A stretch of 45,386 nucleotides of DNA from Candidatus Poribacteria bacterium (GCA_009841255.1 VXMD01000083.1:196584-241969); one strand, 5' to 3'; counted from the stretch's first letter, positions 35,632-45,030 are shown. The notes: generated by a model from the letters alone, not told the origin. Program-made: numbers and translations.

Positions 35632-38580
35632 CTACTGCTGGAGATAATCACGATAGAGGTGACGCTTGAACGCTGCGTTGATCTCCGGCTGCGATAATTT
35701 CGTGTAGAGTTCCAACTTGCTATTGACGAAACCCAACAAAATCTCATCAATCACCTGCTCGAACTTATACCATTTATTATCCTCCGAATTATCGCCTTCA
35801 ATCACCCGTCGCAGTTCCGCGTTTCCATGAATTTTTTGATGAATAGTGTCAAGGTCAACCTTATCCTCCGGCGTGAAATCCGTCTGATGGGCATCGTTGA
35901 GGGTATCAAGGATTTTGGAGAGGAAATCCCGCTGCGGGTCCCTAACGGTAGCGACATCGCTACCGATCCCTTTGACCTCGCTATCCTTCGGTTCAAGGGA
36001 GAGTTGTAAGCTGTCATGCGTTTTCTGGACACGAAATGAATCTAAGTCCACAGATGCTAAAACATCCGATGGATCGGGGTGCTCCCGTTTCGGGAGCTTT
36101 TTATTCAGAGTGCGACCAAAGACATACAACTTCTCCAACGCCACATCGGTGAAGGTAATCAACTGTGAGATGTATCCGTAGAGCCGAATGTAACTCTGTA
36201 AGGTAGAACGAAACTGCTCCCTATCATCTCTCTCAAGTTCTCGCCACCGCTTAACAACCGTATCGAGAATGCCCTGCAGAAGTTCGTCGGGTTGATCAGC
36301 ATCGTAAAAGATATTACAGAATTGGTCGATCATCCCCTCATCGTAGAGGTCAAAATTGTCCAACTCGCGCTGTAGGTCATACAACCGATTCGGATCGGTC
36401 TCCTCTATGAGCGTCGTGGTCTGATAGTATTGTTGAAACGCTTCCTGCACCTGCTTCGGTTCATTTACGAAGTCGAGGACCAACGTATCCGTCTTACCGG
36501 TAGTAACGCGGTTTAGACGGCTCAAGGTTTGGACACATTGCAGCCCGTCCAATCGCTTATCGACATACATCGTCTGGAGCAGGGGTTCATCGAAACCTGT
36601 TTGGAATTTATTCGACACAATCAGAATCCGATATTCAGGACTCTTGAAGCTATCCGCAATGGAAACGCTTGGGGGTAACGCATTCATCCCGTTCTCCGTG
36701 TAGTCCTGCCCGTTATCCGTGTCGTGCACCGTGTCGCTAAAAGCGACAAGACACCCGTAGGGAAGCCCCATTTCCTTCATCTGTCTATCGAATTCTTGCT
36801 TGTATTTGACGCAGTGCAATCGGGACGGTGTGACCAACATCGCCCGCCCTTTTCCGCTGATCGTCTTTGCGGTGTGTGCGGTGAAGTGTTCCAGCATAAT
36901 TCGGGTCTTGGTCTCAATGCTGTGGTGCTGTAGGTCGACGTAATTGGTCAGTTCCCGAAGCGTCCGCGCCTTCTCGTACTCTTTATCCTCCGGCACACTT
37001 TTGACGAGTTCAAAATATCTCTCAAAGGTGGTGTAGTTCTGTAGCACGTCCAGTGTAAAACCTTCGCTGATACTCTGGCGCATCGGGTAGACATGGAACG
37101 GAATAAATGTGCCTTTTGCGTCCTTCCGTCCAAAGAGTTCTAAGGTCTTGTTTTTCGGTGTGCCGCTGAAAGCGAAATAGGAGATATGGTCCTGCATTCT
37201 ACGCTGTTCCATCTGCTCAAGAATCCGAGCGTCTATATCCAATACTGCGTCGGGGTCATCTTCTTCTACCGTCTCCGCAATCTCTTTCGAGAGCGAAGTT
37301 CTGAGATTCCTTGCGGATTCACCGCTCTGTGAGGAGTGCGCTTCGTCAACAATCACGGCGAAGGTCTTGCTTTTGAGTTTGCCGATTTCCTCGGCAATCA
37401 CACTGAACTTCTGGATCGTCGAGATGATGATGTCCTTGCCGGATTCAAGGTAACCCCTGAGTTGTGCGGAAGTCGCATCTACGGGATGCACCACGCCGGC
37501 AACCCGTTCCGTCTGTTTGATGGTATTCTGCAGCTGCTTGTCGAGAATACGCCGATCGGTCACGACGATAATAGAGTCGAAGATGCGCTGCGTATCGTCC
37601 GGGGAGCGATACAGATGCGTCAGTAGATGTGCCAACCAGGCGATGGAGTTCGATTTACCGCTCCCAGTGGTGTGTTGGATGAGGTAGTTCTGCCCAACCC
37701 CTTCTTCCACGATAGCGGCTTTCAATTCACGAATCACGTCGAGCTGATGGTAGCGCGGGAAAACGAGCACGTGACTCTTCACATCTTTCACCATCTTCAG
37801 CTTGTCATCGTAGACCTTCTCTGTGGTCTCCTGCTCATGGATGAAGTCGTTGATTAATTCCATGAGGTTATCGGGGTGTAGGATGTCCTCCCAGAGGTAG
37901 GTGGTCTTGTGTCCGTTCGGGTTCACGGGATTTTCGATGCCCTTATTGAACGGGAAAAACCGCGTCCTGTCGCGCTGCAAGTGGGTCGTCATTGAGACCT
38001 TCTCGTTGCCGACAGCGAAATGCACCAGACCCCGCTTGAATCGGAACAGAGGTTCTCTGGGATCCCGATCTGTCCGATACTGCTTCTCCGCATCCGTCAC
38101 CGTCTGACCCGTGAGACTGTTCTTCAGCTCCATCGTCACCAGCGGTAACCCGTTGAGGAACAGGGTCATATCCAGCGATTTCTCGTTCTTTTTTGAGTAA
38201 TGCAGTTGTCGAATGAGGGAGAATCGGTTCAGGTTGTAGAGACGCAGATGCTCGCGGTTCATGCCGCTGGCGGGACGGAAGTAGGTGAGATGAAAATGGC
38301 ATCCTCTATCTTTAACGCCCTTCTGAAGCACATCCACTATCCCGCGATGCTCGATCTCTCTGCTGATCCGGTTGAGGAGTTTAAGGGGTATCTCCCCATC
38401 GGACTGGCGTTTGAGTTTCAGATATTCTTTAGGTTGCGTATCCTGAATGAACTGAAGAACCTCGTCGGGTATCAAGCAGAGGGATTTATCGTAGTCAGCA
38501 GATTGTAACGACCGATAGCCTGACTGGTTCAGGTGGTGTTCGATGTGTTCTTCGAATCTCTGTTCTGTATACGTCGGCAT
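35632..38580 (-). CDS. hsdR: Type I restriction enzyme, R subunit (HsdR)
   Basis: 982 residues from ATG 38580 (GAGGTG about 7 nt upstream, contributed by the hsdS end; an upstream in-frame ATG would overlap hsdS). N-terminal nuclease segment with LVTMELKNSLTG (about 148), then SF2 motor: Walker A TTGSGKSNS (about 307), DEAH in VIVDEAHSSQSG (about 412), FAFSGTP and later VSNKFQTGFDEP and QTLSRLNR. It translocates and cuts DNA lacking the system's methylation. It follows hsdS by 4 bp, forming one operon, with hsdM displaced about 3.4 kb upstream. All motifs seem intact. Confidence 0.93.
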   Translation of the reverse strand: MPTYTEQRFEEHIEHHLNQSGYRSLQSADYDKSLCLIPDEVLQFIQDTQPKEYLKLKRQSDGEIPLKLLNRISREIEHRGIVDVLQKGVKDRGCHFHLTYFRPASGMNREHLRLYNLNRFSLIRQLHYSKKNEKSLDMTLFLNGLPLVTMELKNSLTGQTVTDAEKQYRTDRDPREPLFRFKRGLVHFAVGNEKVSMTTHLQRDRTRFFPFNKGIENPVNPNGHKTTYLWEDILHPDNLMELINDFIHEQETTEKVYDDKLKMVKDVKSHVLVFPRYHQLDVIRELKAAIVEEGVGQNYLIQHTTGSGKSNSIAWLAHLLTHLYRSPDDTQRIFDSIIVVTDRRILDKQLQNTIKQTERVAGVVHPVDATSAQLRGYLESGKDIIISTIQKFSVIAEEIGKLKSKTFAVIVDEAHSSQSGESARNLRTSLSKEIAETVEEDDPDAVLDIDARILEQMEQRRMQDHISYFAFSGTPKNKTLELFGRKDAKGTFIPFHVYPMRQSISEGFTLDVLQNYTTFERYFELVKSVPEDKEYEKARTLRELTNYVDLQHHSIETKTRIMLEHFTAHTAKTISGKGRAMLVTPSRLHCVKYKQEFDRQMKEMGLPYGCLVAFSDTVHDTDNGQDYTENGMNALPPSVSIADSFKSPEYRILIVSNKFQTGFDEPLLQTMYVDKRLDGLQCVQTLSRLNRVTTGKTDTLVLDFVNEPKQVQEAFQQYYQTTTLIEETDPNRLYDLQRELDNFDLYDEGMIDQFCNIFYDADQPDELLQGILDTVVKRWRELERDDREQFRSTLQSYIRLYGYISQLITFTDVALEKLYVFGRTLNKKLPKREHPDPSDVLASVDLDSFRVQKTHDSLQLSLEPKDSEVKGIGSDVATVRDPQRDFLSKILDTLNDAHQTDFTPEDKVDLDTIHQKIHGNAELRRVIEGDNSEDNKWYKFEQVIDEILLGFVNSKLELYTKLSQPEINAAFKRHLYRDYLQQ

Positions 38581-38584
38581 CGGT

Positions 38585-39823
38585 CTACACCTCGTTTCGG
38601 ACATCTATCTTGCCGGTCACGGCTTCGGAGATCAGGGATTGACGGTATTCTTTGAGGAGTTCGATCTTTCGCAACTCTGCGACTATCAGGTCGTCAATCT
38701 GATTGTTTTTGTGTTCAAGAAAGTCTACAATCTGTTTTTGTTCTCCAAATGGAGGAACTATAGCGGACATACTAAAGAACGCATCAGGGTACAATCGCCA
38801 TCTGGAATTCCAAATTCCTTTTGACCAACGTATAATCTCCTTGACATGATTTGGAGTGCGGTAGAGATAATCGTAATATCTTGGCAGGTATTCACTACTT
38901 TTTAGTTCGTAAACGTTGTAGGAAGGACTTACAATTCCGTCAAACGTTGAAATACCTAATGCCCCCATCCACGCCCACATTGTATTAATAACTAAATTCC
39001 CCACAGAACAGTGTTTGTATCCTTCCAAAGTTTCGGCTAAAAACATACCAACATTCTTCTTTTCCGCCCTTGGGGAAACCCCAGTGATGTGTGATACCGT
39101 AAGCAATTCTTCCTCTCCAGTCGCTGACCTATCGTCCCTCTCATTAAAAATGCGTTTGTTTCTTTTCACTTCCCAACGCGCTGGTATCTCCCCAATCCAC
39201 TCCACGCCCGACGGTTTCATCTCCACATTCGGGTCAAGTCCCTTTGTTACTGTCTGATTTATCAGTGCGGTGCGTTGTTCCTGCAGCAGTTCTATCTGTC
39301 GCTCTTTGATGCGGATGAGTTCGTCAATCTGTTCTGTCTTCCGATCAAGGAATTTGGCGATTTGGGTTTGTGTGGGAAGTGGAGGAACACAAACATTGAT
39401 ACTTGAGAAGCTCGATTTATTTACTATAGGAGTTGTTGCCTGATTCGCTATACTTTGGAGTACATCTGTCTTGGTTATAAGGAGATAATAGACAAAGTAT
39501 GGATTGTATTTGTTTTGATTCACTACAATGCTGTTTATTTGCTGATTTGTTACACTGGGAACGGCTGTCATGCAAATCTTACCGATGCTTGCAATACAGG
39601 TAACACAAACAGCATTTCGAGGAAGCAAGCGATTTTTTCGATATTCATAGCCTTTCTGAGATAAAAAGCGTTCAGTTTGAACGCTGCGAGAATCTATCGT
39701 TATGTCAGTCGGGGTAATGAACGGATATTCATCACCAAAATACTCTGCATTTTTCGTTGGTGGAGTATAACCTGTGATGATCTCTCCTAAACCACCAACA
39801 GTTATGTTAGACCATGAAATCAT
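38585..39823 (-). CDS. hsdS: Type I restriction enzyme, specificity subunit (HsdS)
   Basis: 412 residues with the two-TRD layout. Central conserved helix VPPLPTQTQIAKFLDRKTEQ through TALINQTVTKGLDP, and the distal one VPPFGEQKQIVDFLEHKNNQ through SLISEAVTGKIDV; a target recognition domain precedes each. Together they read a bipartite DNA sequence. It is complete. The start at 39823 is 43 bp from the left arm of an inverted-repeat cassette (39866-40519), which separates it from the hsdM remnant and from hsdM itself. Co-transcribed with hsdR. Confidence 0.92.
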   Translation of the reverse strand: MISWSNITVGGLGEIITGYTPPTKNAEYFGDEYPFITPTDITIDSRSVQTERFLSQKGYEYRKNRLLPRNAVCVTCIASIGKICMTAVPSVTNQQINSIVVNQNKYNPYFVYYLLITKTDVLQSIANQATTPIVNKSSFSSINVCVPPLPTQTQIAKFLDRKTEQIDELIRIKERQIELLQEQRTALINQTVTKGLDPNVEMKPSGVEWIGEIPARWEVKRNKRIFNERDDRSATGEEELLTVSHITGVSPRAEKKNVGMFLAETLEGYKHCSVGNLVINTMWAWMGALGISTFDGIVSPSYNVYELKSSEYLPRYYDYLYRTPNHVKEIIRWSKGIWNSRWRLYPDAFFSMSAIVPPFGEQKQIVDFLEHKNNQIDDLIVAELRKIELLKEYRQSLISEAVTGKIDVRNEV

Positions 39824-39865
39824 ACTGCTTCCTCCGCTCCACGCCTCTCTTTATATTGGGGATAA

Positions 39866-40519
39866 TGTCTGAATCGCGGATTTACGCGGATTCGACGGAT
39901 TGCGCGGATTTTGTGATCGTTCATCTCAAATTCACTTTCACGCGCATAATTTCAATTACGAATTGCGGCATTGCGTTGTGATAGAATCAGTCTTTTGTAT
40001 TTTAAACTTTTCTCACCGAAATTGATTAATAAGGCGACTTCTAATCGATATGCCCTTAAATAATTTAATACCTGTACTTCATGGACATTTTCCAACACGG
40101 CGATGGCTTTCAATTCTACTAACACTTTCTGCGATACCACAAAATCGGCTCTACGTCTTCCGATGGGCTTTGGAAAATCTTTGTAGTAAATATCCTGCTC
40201 AATCTCTCTCTCAAACGCCAACCCCGCTTTCCGCATCTCAATTGACAACGCCCGTTGATAAACCATCTCTTGAAAGCCGTTTCCTAAAAACTTATGGACT
40301 TCAAATGCTGCACCGATGATCTTTTGCGTTATATCCTTATGTTTCAGGTTCGTGTTCATTTGTAATTTCCTTTCTCGATGTCCCTATCTGTATCAATCAT
40401 GCCTTATATAATCACCTATCAAGCGTTAAGCAAGCAAATTCTAACGCCTTAGTGCGTAATAGAACAGGTTCAATAATCCGCGCAATCCGTCTAATCCGCG
40501 AAAATCCGCGATTCAGACA
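39866..40519. mobile_element. Inverted-repeat cassette carrying a GxxExxY gene
   Basis: 45-bp arms at 39866-39910 and 40475-40519 are inverse copies with 43 of 45 bases identical. Each starts TGTCTGAATCGCGGATT at its outer end and is built of GCGGATT-like short repeats. The only gene within is GxxExxY (39952-40359). No clear target duplication is seen. The cassette lies between an hsdM 3'-end remnant and hsdS. 40360-40474 holds no further gene. Confidence 0.7.
39952..40359 (-). CDS. GxxExxY family protein (PD-(D/E)XK nuclease-like)
   Basis: 135 residues, normal for the family. The name motif is present as GFQEMVY, after AFEVHKFLGNG. Further on, RRRADFVVSQKVLVELKAI gives the Asp and ExK pattern of a PD-(D/E)XK fold, and VQVLNYLRAY and ALLINFG close the domain. 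Biochemical function is not established; a nuclease is inferred. It sits alone inside 45-bp inverted repeats, suggesting it travels as a unit and may help move it. Independent start; not in frame-coupled arrangement with hsdS. Confidence 0.85.
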   Translation of the reverse strand: MNTNLKHKDITQKIIGAAFEVHKFLGNGFQEMVYQRALSIEMRKAGLAFEREIEQDIYYKDFPKPIGRRRADFVVSQKVLVELKAIAVLENVHEVQVLNYLRAYRLEVALLINFGEKSLKYKRLILSQRNAAIRN

Positions 40520-40538
40520 AATGGAATCTGTTTGAACC

Positions 40539-40600
40539 TCATAATCCCAACACCTCATTTAGCAAACCTTCACTTTTCCGATCCAATGCTCCCATGCCAT
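40539..40600 (-). pseudogene. hsdM 3'-end remnant
   Basis: The minus strand reads ALDRKSEGLLNEVLGL then stop, against ALERESEGLLNEVLGL then stop at the end of hsdM (43285). The 26 bases at 40534-40559 equal 43280-43305, and similarity continues with mismatches to about 40590. Nothing of hsdM remains before this. It marks where hsdM once joined the hsdS side, or a duplication made by an insertion. Confidence 0.75.
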
Positions 40601-40701
40601 CGTCAAAGATCATTCTCGCAAATAAACCCCACTGTTACACCGTTTCGACGGAATACGTCGTGGAAACCCCACCACTTTCTTAATGGAACGAATACATCCC
40701 A

Positions 40702-40929
40702 TTAGAGTAAGAACAATTTACCTTCAGGCATTTTGCCGGTATAGTGTATTGCTGCTCCTCCTATGAATCCGTCTAATGCATCATAGACATCATCACGGAC
40801 TCTGCTATGAACAGAAACTATACCGCCCAGGAGTTCAGTATTCTCACTGATTTCAGGTTCAATAATGAACAACCACTCATTTGGATATTTCCGTTCCATT
40901 TCTGCTATCGTTAAACGTTCAGCACACAT
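40702..40929 (-). CDS. Small hypothetical protein
   Basis: 75 residues, with GAGGAG 7 nt before the ATG. MCAERLTIAEMERKYPNEWL, then GGIVSVHSRVRDDVYDAL and a Lys-rich short tail. Similar small proteins often sit beside retropepsin-like aspartic proteases, but no such gene follows: the 100 bp after it contain only the hsdM remnant. A small stem (CGCCT-TTTTAG-AGGCG) lies just before its Shine-Dalgarno sequence. Function unknown. Confidence 0.6.
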   Translation of the reverse strand: MCAERLTIAEMERKYPNEWLFIIEPEISENTELLGGIVSVHSRVRDDVYDALDGFIGGAAIHYTGKMPEGKLFLL

Positions 40930-41040
40930 TTTAGAGCTCCTCGCCTCTAAAAAGGCGGATTAAGATTAGATTCTTTTTTAATTTTAAGGGGTTATACCAC
41001 ATTTTCTACGTGTTGCCCAGTCAATTAACTACTTCAAATA

Positions 41041-41117
41041 CAGGACTGCACCTATACAATGCAGTCCTGAAAGGAGGTAAGACAATGGCTAAGATTCAAT
41101 TGCTCGCTGAATGCTGA
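41041..41117 (+). other. Perfect hairpin plus strong ribosome site and 10-codon ORF (orphan gene start)
   Basis: CAGGACTGCA (41041-41050) and its exact inverse (41060-41069) form a 10-bp stem with a 9-nt loop. Then AAAGGAGGT, 6 nt, ATG at 41085, encoding MAKIQLLAEC and a stop. The ribosome site is as good as can be, but the frame is very short. It could be a leader peptide or a gene start cut off by rearrangement. The rest of 40930-41120 shows nothing. Confidence 0.4.
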
Positions 41118-41120
41118 GCC

Positions 41121-41375
41121 CTAAACTCCCATCATTAGTTTTTCAAGTCGCGGATGAAATACCGCATAGAATTTTTCAAGCATATCAACCAACCATTCGT
41201 GTTGATTATGCCAATCTTTCTCATCGGTAGGATCGGCATCTTGATTTCTGAAAGCCACGCGTTTCTCAGATTTTGCTCTCGCCCACCATTCCAACTGGTC
41301 CCCAAAGTCTTTCTCAATTTCTTCTTCCTGCACCCTTAAAGCGTAGAAGTGACCTATCGCATTTGCACCTCTCAT
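41121..41375 (-). pseudogene. DUF4268 C-terminal part (frameshifted from the gene at 41378)
   Basis: 84 residues as read; FYALRVQEEEIEKDFGDQLE, KDWHNQHEWLVDMLEKFYAVF and HPRLEKL are the C-terminal half of a DUF4268 domain, often attached to nuclease-like proteins. The frame runs upstream past its ATG (KSRQTIKHKEISAALVMRGA), and the N-terminal half of the domain is in the frame of 41378-42043 (ending IGIKGFSL). One added base around 41415-41440 would join them. Not an independent gene. Confidence 0.7.
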
Positions 41376-41377
41376 GA

Positions 41378-42043
41378 CTAACGCAGCACTGATTTCTTTA
41401 TGTTTAATAGTCTGTCTGCTCTTAGCGAAAAACCTTTTATGCCAATCTGTAAGTCGCGGTAATGCGATGCATTCGCCGTTGGCCGTTGTAAACGACTATT
41501 TCGCCTCTCTAAATGATCACGTAGTCCTGTCGAGTATTTAATATTCTGTACTTGTCTTTCAGTCTGTAATTGTCCTTCAGTAAAATTTTTCGCTATCACG
41601 TGTTCAGATACCATTTTACCTGAAGTCCCTGACGCGCTGCGTACCCCTGCATTGGGCATCATGTTGGTCAGCGGCAGATTAATGGGCGTCTCCGCTCCAA
41701 AAGATGTGAAAATTGAGCCAAGGATATGAAAAGGTGGCATGACTCCAATGTTTACAGCGTCTGAAAGAAACCGCGGATCAATGCCAGCGTGTTTTGAAAC
41801 GCTAAGAATCCCACCTTGTGCCTCTATGACATTCTTTATTCCCTTAAGAAAAAATGCCTTGTCGCCGTCATCTAAATATTCCTCAAGAGAAACTTCAAGG
41901 TAGCCGATAACATCTTCTGGATCAGAAAGACGTTCCATTAAAATTTCATGCCACGTTCTAAATCGTTCCATCACTTCCATGAAGGGCTCTCTCCTATTTG
42001 AAGTCCTGTACGCGTCTACCTCCAGTTGGTGTGTATTATTCAT
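41378..42043 (-). CDS. Addiction-module antitoxin-like HTH protein joined to start of DUF4268 (frameshifted)
   Basis: 221 residues. Residues about 44-118 look like the HTH antidote of HigBA-type or addiction modules: SLEEYLDDGDKAFFLKGIKN, then GGILSVSKHAGIDPRFLSDA and PPFHILGSIFTSFG. From about residue 165 (NIKYSTGLRDHLERRNSRL, YRDLQIGIKGFSL) it matches the first half of DUF4268, and then the frame is lost. With one base restored the fusion would be about 300 residues. No toxin neighbour is seen. A broken copy of the 5' end lies at 42741-42806. Confidence 0.65.
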   Translation of the reverse strand: MNNTHQLEVDAYRTSNRREPFMEVMERFRTWHEILMERLSDPEDVIGYLEVSLEEYLDDGDKAFFLKGIKNVIEAQGGILSVSKHAGIDPRFLSDAVNIGVMPPFHILGSIFTSFGAETPINLPLTNMMPNAGVRSASGTSGKMVSEHVIAKNFTEGQLQTERQVQNIKYSTGLRDHLERRNSRLQRPTANASHYRDLQIGIKGFSLRADRLLNIKKSVLR

Positions 42044-42255
42044 CCCTCATCTTCATATTCAAGATTCTCTGCTGAGCGTATTGTGTAACCCTTCAACCTG
42101 AATTCTAACACATTGTATGCTACAATACACGTTAAGTTGAGACTCAATTAGGGCTATTTAGTTTTAAAAATTTAGCAGATTTTTTGGAATTTGAAGGTTC
42201 TTTTCCATACCCGGAGCGGTTACATGAAGATTAAGAATTTAATTCGGTAATGCGT

Positions 42256-42276
42256 GGGCAGGCACAAGACCTGCCC
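42256..42276. repeat. Dispersed GGGC...GCCC hairpin
   Basis: GGGCAGG-CACAAGA-CCTGCCC, identical to the copy at 35572-35592; followed by CCTACAC. Confidence 0.6.
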
Positions 42277-42300
42277 CTACACAGGTATTTTTGTGAAAAT

Positions 42301-42350
42301 TTCATAGTGATTCATAGTGATTCATAGTGATTCATAGTGATTCATAGTAA
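42301..42350. repeat. 10-bp tandem repeat, five copies
   Basis: TTCATAGTGA repeated four times exactly and once as TTCATAGTAA. Copies fall one helical turn apart. Part of the gene-free stretch 42044-42819. Confidence 0.85.
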
Positions 42351-42360
42351 GCATTTCAGA

Positions 42361-42560
42361 AAGGGGCGTTGTAACCCCTTGAAAACGTAGTCGTGGCGTG
42401 GGTTTAGAGCCTGTTGGAGACTGTCTCATTTTTTGGGGGTTACTATGAAAGTATAAAATCAGCGGATCTTCCGATCCCTTGAGAACGTAGTGGTGGCGTG
42501 GGTTTAGTGCCTGTTTGGAAAAATTAGTTTTTTTGGCGTTACTATGAAAATTATGAAAAA
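42361..42560. repeat. Two imperfect 100-bp tandem repeats, each with a hairpin and a short start
   Basis: CCCTTGA-AACGTAGT-GTGGCGTGG begins at 42376 and again at 42476. Each copy is preceded by a hairpin of different sequence (AAGGGG...CCCCTT; GGATC...GATCC) and ends with GTTACTATGAAA, which opens a very short ORF (MKV; MKIMKKLFR). A third GGTTACATGAAG start (MKIKNLIR) lies at 42224. Confidence 0.6.
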
Positions 42561-42607
42561 ACTGTTTCGTTGAATAACATATAACACACTGATAAATTAT
42601 TGCGTTA

Positions 42608-42740
42608 AAATGTTACACCAGTGTAACATTTGGTAGGTAAGGGTTATCTGATTGAAACATAGTGGCCGTAAGGGTTTATAGACCTTTTTCCTTATCTCTC
42701 CGTTGTGGAAAAAAATAATTTGACGGAAAGTGTAACATTT
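42608..42740. repeat. 11-bp inverted repeats (palindrome plus distant half site)
   Basis: AAATGTTACAC-CA-GTGTAACATTT (42608-42631) is a perfect palindrome. GTGTAACATTT recurs at 42730-42740, directly against the broken copy of the antitoxin 5' end. Can be read as an operator with an extra half site or as a 133-bp element with 11-bp terminal inverted repeats. Confidence 0.6.
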
Positions 42741-42806
42741 AAAATTTCATGCCATGTTCTAAATCGTTCCATCATTCATCCCTCATCTCCATATTCAAGA
42801 TTCTCT
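42741..42806 (-). pseudogene. Truncated copy of the 5' end of the antitoxin-DUF4268 gene
   Basis: 42741-42774 matches 41940-41973 with one mismatch, and 42775-42806 matches 42039-42070 with one mismatch; the 65 bp between are missing in this copy. It still reads MERFRTWHEIL before running off into unrelated sequence. Confidence 0.75.
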
Positions 42807-42819
42807 ACCGGTGGGAGAA

Positions 42820-43218
42820 TCAAGGACCGACAATCTGCCGTTGCTTCAGCGTTTCGATTTCTTGTGCAAGTGCCTCCACCTGTCTTTCGAGGGAACGGTC
42901 TTTTACACTTCGCCCTGCCATGATAGCGGTAGGTACACCAATAGCAGCAACAATAAGCGGCATGAAAATGTAAATCACCCAGTTATACGTTGATAACTGT
43001 TTTTCGACGCTTTCTATTTTGAGGTCAATATACTGTTTTATGTTTTTCTCGGTGCTCTCAATCTCTGCTTTGATGTCTTGTTTGATCCGCTTTTCGGACA
43101 CATTGACGGACTCACTGACAATCAAGCGGATTTTGTCAAGGTCTGCATCCGTCAATTCGGCAAGTGCTGGCAACGCAAGCACAGAAAAAAATATTAAAAA
43201 GAAAATGAGAGTTTTCAT
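42820..43218 (-). CDS. Coiled-coil membrane protein with signal peptide
   Basis: 132 residues. Signal peptide (residues 1-20, ending ALPALA), a helical charged region (about 22-75, repeating KQDIKAEIEST, KNIKQYIDLKIES), one transmembrane segment (about 80-102, WVIYIFMPLIVAAIGVPTAI) and a C-terminal coiled coil (SLERQVEALAQEIETLKQRQ). No enzyme motif. It is the next gene after hsdM (66 bp) on the same strand. A coiled-coil membrane protein also accompanies the type III RM operon; whether that is meaningful is open. AAGGAGA precedes the ATG. Confidence 0.75.
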   Translation of the reverse strand: MKTLIFFLIFFSVLALPALAELTDADLDKIRLIVSESVNVSEKRIKQDIKAEIESTEKNIKQYIDLKIESVEKQLSTYNWVIYIFMPLIVAAIGVPTAIMAGRSVKDRSLERQVEALAQEIETLKQRQIVGP

Positions 43219-43284
43219 TGGGGGTCTCCTTTTAGAAATAGTAAAACATATTTGGACTCGAGTGTCAACCCCAAAATCCGAACC

Positions 43285-45030
43285 TCATAATCCCAACACC
43301 TCATTCAACAAGCCTTCACTTTCCCGCTCCAGTGCCAACAATTCGTCCGTGATTTCCTTCAGTGAACGTAGCGGCGTGTACTCGTAGAAATACCGATTGA
43401 AGTTAATCTCGTAGCCGACCTTATCCTTCTTCCTATCCACCCAACCGTCAGGCAGATGTGGTTTCACTTCGCGTTGGTAGTAATCCTCAACGTCCTCTGT
43501 GAGGGGAACGCGCTCGTAGTCTCGCAACTTGGTATCCGGTTTCGGATTCCCCTTTTTGTCCTGAACGACGACCTCCGTTTCCTCACCCAAAATCTCTTGC
43601 TTCTCAATGAGCGGTCTCTCAATCGTCACCTTCGTGTAGCCGAAAAAGGCGTTCGGATAGATTTTGGTGTGTTCGGTCTCTTCAAAGTTAGTATATAATT
43701 CGATTATACGACGGATATGGCTATCGGAAATGAGAGCGTTCTTGTCTCCGAGATTCCTTTTCATGTCGTCGTGGAAGTCAACGGCGTTGATGAGTTGGAT
43801 CTTGCCCCGTCGCGCCGCCGATTTTCGGTTCGTTAGGATCCAGATATACGTGGCGATACCGGTGTTGAAGAACAACTTTTCAGGCAGGGCGACAATACAC
43901 TCCAACCAGTCGTTTTCGATAATCCAACGGCGGATTTCGCTCTCACCGCTGCCGGCATCCCCTGTAAAGAGCGGGGACCCGTTAAAGACGATGCCGACCC
44001 GACTTCCGCGATCCTCCATCTTGGAGAGCATGTGTTGCAGGAAGAGCAACGCCCCGTCGGAGGTGCGTGGTGTCCCTGCTGAGAATCTGCCAGTGGTGGT
44101 CTGTGCCTCCGCTTTCACCGACGCTTCATCGGATTTCCAACTGACACCGAAAGGTGGATTGGTTATCATGTAATCGAAACGTTGCCCTTGAAATCGGTCC
44201 TCGGAGAGACTGGAACCGAGCCGAATACTGTCGGGATCTTCTCCTGTGATGAGCATATCCGACTTGCAGATGGCGTAGGTCTGGGCGTTGAGTTCCTGAC
44301 CCAATAGCCGAATGTCAGCATCCGGATTAATCTGTTCGCGGAAGTACTCCTTCCCGATCGTTAACATGCCGCCCGTTCCGCAACACGGATCGAAGATACT
44401 GCGGATTACCCCTTGTCCACGCAGATCTTCACGGTGTTCCGCAAACAGGAGTGAGACCAATAACCGCACGACATCCCGCGGGGTGTAGTGTTCGCCACTC
44501 GTTTCGTTGGACATCTCCGAGAACCGGCGGAGCAGTTCCTCAAAGACCTGTCCCATCGTGTGGTTGTCCACCTGCTTCGGATGTAGGTCGATTTCGGTGA
44601 ACTTGTCGCAAAAAGCGAACAATCGGTTATGCCTGTCTAATCGCTCAATAAACTGATCGAGATTGAAGTTTTCGATGATGTCGCGCACGTCCTGACTGAA
44701 TCCGCCGATGTAGTTCTGAAAGTTGAGGCGTATGTTGTGTGAATCGTCTGCCAGTCGGGAGAGGTCGTATGGGGAGGTATTGTAGAAACCGGTGCATGTC
44801 GCTTGCCGAATAATTGGTGGGAGTTGATCTTCCGGTACTAAGTCTTTAAACTGATTGTGGGTATTAATGGCTTTCTTTTTTCGTCCGTCCTCATCTAAGA
44901 TGCAATCCAATCGGCGGAGCACCAGAAACGGAAGGGTGATGTCGCCGTATTCATGCGGTTTGAAAAGTCCGCGGAGCACATCATCCGCTACATTCCACAC
45001 CAGATTCGCGAGTTCTTGATAATTTGCCAT
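43285..45030 (-). CDS. hsdM: Type I restriction enzyme, methyltransferase subunit (HsdM)
   Basis: 581 residues, complete. N-terminal HsdM_N region (ANLVWNVADDVLRGLFKPHEYG), then the N6-adenine methyltransferase domain: motif I IFDPCCGTGGML and motif IV NPPFGVSW, in the gamma-class order. With HsdS it methylates the target; with HsdR the complex cleaves. It is driven by the promoter at 45075-45103. hsdS-hsdR lie 3.4 kb downstream beyond a cassette, repeats and accessory genes, and a remnant of a second hsdM 3' end lies beside them; expression of the three subunits from one message is thus doubtful. Confidence 0.93.
   Translation of the reverse strand: MANYQELANLVWNVADDVLRGLFKPHEYGDITLPFLVLRRLDCILDEDGRKKKAINTHNQFKDLVPEDQLPPIIRQATCTGFYNTSPYDLSRLADDSHNIRLNFQNYIGGFSQDVRDIIENFNLDQFIERLDRHNRLFAFCDKFTEIDLHPKQVDNHTMGQVFEELLRRFSEMSNETSGEHYTPRDVVRLLVSLLFAEHREDLRGQGVIRSIFDPCCGTGGMLTIGKEYFREQINPDADIRLLGQELNAQTYAICKSDMLITGEDPDSIRLGSSLSEDRFQGQRFDYMITNPPFGVSWKSDEASVKAEAQTTTGRFSAGTPRTSDGALLFLQHMLSKMEDRGSRVGIVFNGSPLFTGDAGSGESEIRRWIIENDWLECIVALPEKLFFNTGIATYIWILTNRKSAARRGKIQLINAVDFHDDMKRNLGDKNALISDSHIRRIIELYTNFEETEHTKIYPNAFFGYTKVTIERPLIEKQEILGEETEVVVQDKKGNPKPDTKLRDYERVPLTEDVEDYYQREVKPHLPDGWVDRKKDKVGYEINFNRYFYEYTPLRSLKEITDELLALERESEGLLNEVLGL

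Follow-up and report, generated by a model that had tools for sequence, protein, structure and literature searches.

An intact type I RM operon with a repeated hsdM end

We propose that the hsdM-hsdS junction of a type I restriction-modification (RM) operon in sponge-associated Poribacteria serves as a bay in which defence and toxin-antitoxin genes are carried as cargo, and that copies of the hsdM 3' end found beyond the cargo are old junctions re-used as exchange joints; we regard this as the probable explanation of the arrangement described here. The operon lies in a 45,386-nucleotide stretch of DNA (the window) from a metagenome-assembled genome of a Candidatus Poribacteria bacterium (contig C83, 196584-241969), and the nearest matches to its hsdM are from Poribacteria. 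A repeat search of the window revealed that the hsdM 3' end (43280-43335) recurs at 40534-40589, with 50 of 56 nt identical (89%) and a start-to-start distance of 2746 bp. The repeat covers the 17 final hsdM codons, counting the stop, and 5 nt of flanking sequence (GGTTC); we refer to the repeated hsdM end as the tail. The pair has an E-value of about 1e-14 against the whole 5.73-Mb genome, indicating that it is not due to chance. A first-pass annotation of this DNA had already recognised the recurrence, with ends (40600 and 43340) that overshoot by 5-11 bp. Only two other strong tail copies are present in this genome, both on contig C8. At that site (locus L157, 5773-7018), an apparently decayed second RM locus contains two tails 1.2 kb apart and no hsdM, and the second tail sits directly on an hsdS-type start.

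The same annotation had described the RM operon as taken apart, which is contradicted by the operon itself. Open reading frames (ORFs) and Pfam matches place full-length genes for all three subunits on the same strand in the order M-S-R, as in a type I RM system, ruling out a broken or dead operon. The order on the minus strand is hsdM, a coiled-coil gene, an antitoxin-like ORF, a DUF4268 fragment, a 75-amino-acid (aa) gene, the repeat, a GxxExxY gene, hsdS and hsdR (Table 1). Direct coupling of hsdM to hsdS, which is typical of such operons and not obligatory, is absent from the window, where 3461 nt separate the hsdM stop codon from the hsdS ORF. The M-S junction is stretched by cargo, and the operon is otherwise collinear.

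Empty and filled junctions in related genomes

We fetched the loci of hsdM orthologues with 78-93% identity from about 30 Poribacteria genomes, and surveyed 25 loci, the window and 24 relatives, in which the hsdM-hsdS interval is complete. Relatives with hsdM directly before hsdS, the comparison that had been suggested at the outset, do exist: three of the 25 junctions (L142, L146 and L151) are empty, with a gap of -4 nt in which the hsdM stop codon overlaps the hsdS start codon (ATGA). The other 22 loci have 916-8552 nt of cargo between the two genes, and 17 of them contain one to three extra hsdM tails. In these loci, the extra hsdM end is the mark of an insertion event that took place at the 3' end of hsdM and re-created it, as initially proposed. 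When every full hsdM was compared with the DNA downstream of it, 24 matches were obtained, all but one of which (23) are limited to the extreme hsdM 3' end; the sole exception is part of a longer hsdM remnant in L129. Tail copies are also present in genomes of one to three contigs (G055, G056 and G057), making short-read misassembly unlikely. In the relatives' loci that were read, tails are located at intact or decayed hsdM loci, indicating that the tail is not a dispersed repeat.

Tails are joined to several kinds of cargo. The tail follows the 3' end of the gene for HEC-03A in 16 copies (the window and 15 others), and is otherwise fused to the end of a CAAX gene (three copies), an aspartyl protease gene (two), an inverted-repeat element (at least three) or a pAgo gene (one). 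Fusion to different cargo ends indicates that tail fusions arose several times. Most copies are 40-56 bp long, and the left boundaries of the repeat vary with cargo type. On the downstream side, we observed five types of flank, each of which lies behind the hsdM gene's own tail in one set of genomes and behind a copy in another: the hsdS start (three after the gene, four after the copy), the inverted-repeat flank of a GxxExxY element (three and five, respectively), agtctctggtataacgaa, attATGATTACCGA and gagattattgatgtgatgg. A further flank group, ttggtaaaaagta, was not counted toward exchange because it is a promoter-like repeat that is present elsewhere too. Some loci contain arrays, with four tails and three cargo units between them in L149, and three tails in L137. 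The hsdS-side copy in L149 differs at one of 39 positions from the hsdM end of the empty sister locus L151, and at six of 39 from the hsdM end of L149 itself. This pattern is most simply read as an original junction preserved on the hsdS side, with the present hsdM end having arrived together with cargo.

A likely start signal for hsdS within the hsdM end

The tail has the motif GAGGTG 8 nt upstream of the ATG in TTATGA, and this ATG is the start codon of hsdS in the empty loci. Judging from the sequence, the last ~40 bp of hsdM likely hold the Shine-Dalgarno (SD) sequence of hsdS. In EcoKI, translation of hsdM and hsdS is coupled through a stop-start overlap of 1 nt (PMC3510504). The Poribacteria junction is alike in that the stop overlaps the start (ATGA), and unlike EcoKI in that the coupling segment seems to have been duplicated and re-used around inserted genes. 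Insertion of DNA after hsdM would part hsdS from its start signal unless that signal were duplicated.

We suggest that the empty state, with its overlapping stop and start codons, is the starting point, and that cargo would go in at the hsdM 3' end. One hsdM end would then remain on hsdM ahead of the cargo, and a second would be found beyond the cargo. This distal copy would be the old junction, at first still giving a ribosome site and start codon to hsdS or to more cargo, and would probably be retained for this role in hsdS translation, presumably through selection for translational coupling. Later exchange between tails could delete, add or swap cargo, giving rise to arrays of cargo-tail units; the agent of exchange would most likely be ordinary homologous recombination across ~40-55 bp.

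Several observations weigh against this proposal. Five of the 22 cargo-bearing loci have no recognisable tail copy, suggesting that the tail is not obligatory or that it has been lost over time. RecA-dependent exchange would have little homology to work with in repeats of 40-55 bp, which are also too short and variable for a crossover to be located within them. The copy in the window no longer adjoins hsdS, and cannot serve hsdS now. Lastly, tail copies are rare outside Poribacteria (two of 62 loci, about 19 of which have a gap of at least 0.8 kb).

Alternative origins of the tail copies

A tandem duplication of hsdM (or of hsdM with cargo), or allele replacement, could have left a surplus hsdM that eroded to its last ~50 bp, these being kept for the start signal of the next gene. 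Replacement of one hsdM by another had been raised in the first-pass annotation, and there are traces of such events. L129 has a larger second hsdM remnant (residues 370-402 and 545-579). In L153 (2130-2636 and 14340-17326), one hsdM has lost its middle, so that residues 1-96 run straight into 509-581; cargo comes next, and a full hsdM placed directly on hsdS lies 11.7 kb further along. This arrangement is likely an intermediate of hsdM duplication. The synonymous figure for Poribacteria copies against their own gene tails, which pools related copies, is 0.40, higher than the 0.24 predicted for neutral drift, and gene-gene pairs give 0.53. The planctomycete copy described below differs from its hsdM end by synonymous changes only. 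However, most copies end near one point (40-56 bp), and the HEC-03A-tail fusion is one shared junction that fits insertion equally well. We consider an origin by duplication and erosion rather unlikely, and do not favour it.

Some elements integrate into the 3' ends of tRNA genes or protein genes. If a recombinase used the hsdM 3' end as its attachment site, attL would correspond to the gene tail and attR to the copy. The re-created gene end, the direct repeats of ~40-55 bp that flank the cargo, the one at its far boundary included, and the cargo-tail arrays of L149 and L137 are all consistent with site-specific integration. However, a Pfam scan of about 38 cargo proteins detected no tyrosine or serine recombinase, the left boundaries of the repeat differ by cargo type, and the repeat has no hairpin or self-complementarity. 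Moreover, other phyla show the same pattern with unrelated tail sequences, and the cargo, unlike that of elements that integrate at gene 3' ends, consists of one to six genes mostly in operon orientation. Site-specific integration is thus very unlikely, and an integrase-driven cassette was ruled out, there being neither a recombinase in the cargo scanned nor a fold. Coincidence or a dispersed common repeat, which the other dispersed repeats of the locus (the GxxExxY inverted repeats) might bring to mind, has virtually no chance of being correct given the genome-wide E-value, the location of tails at hsdM loci and the 23 of 24 self-matches at the extreme hsdM end, and was ruled out by the whole-genome searches and the self-match survey.

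Similar repeats beyond Poribacteria and between hsdS and hsdR

In a planctomycete locus (L120), the tail copy is 55 bp long with 89% identity, and two ATGA overlaps chain the stop codon of the cargo to an 18-codon mini-ORF formed by the hsdM end, and this mini-ORF to the gene that follows. All five differences between this copy and the hsdM end are synonymous, as if the copy were derived from another hsdM allele. In a Bacteroidales locus (L057), a tail copy of 52 bp (86.5%) follows a 289-aa cargo gene. The same pattern is seen at the second junction of the operon in the Poribacteria locus L131 (10687-12101, locus oriented with hsdM on the plus strand), where a 136-bp repeat of the hsdS 3' end (82%) lies immediately upstream of hsdR, the two copies enclosing a YhgA-like transposase gene. 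These independent cases speak for a general cause rather than for a recombinase particular to one lineage. We tentatively extend our proposal to suggest that the hsdM 3' end might be a reusable joint, supplying both recombination homology and the translation start of the next gene, that the operon might be an integrase-free immune cassette array, and that such joints might have had separate origins in other phyla and at the junction of hsdS and hsdR.

Relation to known systems

Defence genes are frequently embedded in other defence operons. In E. coli, DarTG2 is embedded in a type I RM locus between hsdS and hsdR (PMC12255303), and embedding in RM loci is thus known. The bay described here differs from the E. 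coli case in lying between hsdM and hsdS, in being highly variable within one genus, and in being jointed by copies of the hsdM end. Embedded defence ("guilt by embedding", PADLOC HEC and PDC candidates) likewise involves defence or toxin-antitoxin genes between the genes of another system, and several cargo proteins here match HEC-03, PDC-S11, PDC-S31, pAgo and bSEFIR models. Integron cassette arrays are alike in being linear sets of small cargo units, several of which end in a similar short sequence, with content that varies between strains. Unlike integrons, the cargo scanned has no integrase (IntI), and the joint is not an attC site but the end of the hsdM coding sequence; folding of the joint gave no attC-like structure, with no fold better than those of shuffled sequences. 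We found no earlier report of hsdM-end duplication in the open-access literature searched. Embedding itself is known, and the hsdM-end joint appears, within the literature searched, to be new. If the junction is duplicated and the start signal of the downstream gene thereby kept, this would be a concrete and testable answer to the question of how cargo enters without breaking the host operon. It also offers a search signature for embedded cargo elsewhere, namely the last ~50 bp of an upstream gene copied before the downstream gene.

History of the window locus

The window sits in a supported clade of seven (100/99). Three of its members (the window, L128 and L131) share a tail fused to an HEC-03A remnant and followed by a GxxExxY-type inverted-repeat flank. 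The presence of this joint in related species indicates that the duplication is older than they are, in agreement with the earlier view that it is not recent. In L127, from the same clade, the hsdM tail is joined straight to the GxxExxY-type inverted-repeat flank, as expected if the segment between two tails was lost. We observed a further junction in the window at 40680/40681, where the flank of the 75-aa gene (p75) meets the last 91 bp of HEC-03A. The same p75 flank in L141 continues into Uma2, HEC-03B, HEC-03A and the tail, and comparison of the two loci suggests deletion as the likely cause of the fusion in the window. The window array was probably once p75-Uma2-HEC-03B-HEC-03A-tail, as in L141, and the deletion would have taken out everything that lay between p75 and the 91 bp of HEC-03A still present. 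An element bounded by inverted repeats and carrying the GxxExxY gene lies between the tail and hsdS, so that the copy at 40534-40589 would now be a fossil joint.

The GxxExxY element (39866-40519) is bounded on both sides by a 45-bp inverted repeat of the CGCGGATT type; the repeat has 21 matches in this genome. An end of such an inverted repeat interrupts an hsdM tail at one identical point (ATTCAGACA/GAAAAGTG) in L132, L137, L138 and L149. The GxxExxY inverted-repeat elements look like a family of small mobile elements.

Cargo genes

Among the loci, the bay contains an AAA ATPase (PADLOC HEC-03B, 2.3e-139) with a PIN-like partner (HEC-03A), Piwi/Schlafen Argonaute, a REase-APAZ and pAgo pair, bSEFIR, PDC-S31, DUF4268 (PDC-S11), Uma2, ParE, CAAX protease, aspartyl protease and toxin-antitoxin genes. 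PADLOC and Pfam matches in the relatives place defence-type genes between the RM genes and in the same orientation, as in embedded defence; the window itself keeps only decayed members of this cargo. Instead of intact HEC-03A and HEC-03B genes, just a 91-bp stub of HEC-03A is left in the window. The stub matches intact HEC-03A-tail junctions in L137, L141, L144, L145, L148, L149 and L155, and its L141 homologue matches PADLOC HEC-03A (1.8e-26).

The 2.69 kb between the two tails had been likened to an inserted element and noted to hold an antitoxin-DUF4268 gene, repeats and a coiled-coil gene. These components are present; the p75 unit and the HEC-03A stub had been overlooked, and the block is made up of layered, partly decayed cargo modules. 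A single 2.7-kb mobile element is ruled out by the mosaic structure, in which modules end at 40680/40681 and close to 41095, and by the different modules in related genomes. The antitoxin and DUF4268 regions form a single 292-aa ORF in L153, which matches PADLOC PDC-S11 (8.1e-24), and are split across two frames in the window. The N-terminus of the antitoxin-like ORF resembles that of the adjacent toxin-position gene in L154, and the ORF (41378-42043) is probably a decayed cargo gene. The p75 gene has no Pfam match. Its DNA is 91-94% identical between loci whose HsdM proteins are 87-90% identical, and this greater conservation than that of the adjacent hsdM suggests that the p75 unit moves between species.

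Table 1. Features of the RM operon and its cargo in the window.
Position	Strand	Feature	Evidence
43285-45030	-	hsdM, type I methyltransferase subunit, 581 aa, full-length	Pfam N6_Mtase 2.6e-63, HsdM_N 1.7e-19; intact ORF
43285-43340	-	hsdM tail: final 18 codons, which include an SD-like GAGGTG and close with the TTATGA stop; source of the repeat	Repeat search; empty relatives
42820-43218	-	Coiled-coil/membrane cargo gene, 132 aa; also in same-clade L126, L129, L130	ORFs; comparison with relatives
42739-42806		Relic: partial second copy of the antitoxin-gene 5' region	Repeats D4/D5; matches L139, L153, L154
41378-42043	-	Antitoxin-like ORF (HI1420-type)	Weak Pfam dnstrm_HI1420 match, E=0.0016
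41121-41375	-	DUF4268 C-terminal fragment, frame differs from that of preceding ORF	Pfam DUF4268 7.7e-12
40681-40968	-	p75 unit (75-aa gene 40702-40929)	91-94% DNA identity in L130, L133, L135, L141
40590-40680	-	HEC-03A (PIN-like) 3'-end stub, 91 bp, fused directly to tail copy	74-83% identity to intact HEC-03A-tail junctions
40534-40589	-	hsdM 3'-end copy, probable displaced former hsdM-hsdS junction	Repeat search; flank comparison
40475-40519		Terminal inverted repeat of GxxExxY element, tail side	Repeat search (I1)
39952-40359	-	GxxExxY/PDDEXK_3 gene in inverted-repeat-flanked element between tail copy and hsdS	Pfam PDDEXK_3 4e-36
39866-39910		Terminal inverted repeat of GxxExxY element, hsdS side	Repeat search (I1); genome search
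39833-39865	-	Old hsdS 5'-end remnant (ttatccccaatataaagagaggcgtggagcgg), cut from tail by element	Comparison with gacgttatcctgaatataaagaaagtggtatggagtgg at hsdS start of empty loci
38585-39823	-	hsdS, 412 aa, start now behind its own SD-like GGAGGA	Pfam Methylase_S 6.5e-33; sequence
35632-38604	-	hsdR, 990 aa	Pfam HSDR_N, SWI2_SNF2, T1R_D3-like

The cargo segment also has short repeats: at 42301-42687, a ~40-bp sequence (CCCTTGAAAACGTAGTCGTGGCGTGGGTTTA...) is present three times, together with a 10-bp tandem repeat (TTCATAGTGA). A leader, ttggtaaaaagtagaaaatgtggtataat, at about 40980-41030 of the window recurs before several cargo genes in the relatives; it resembles a sigma-70 promoter, suggesting that the cargo may be transcribed on its own.

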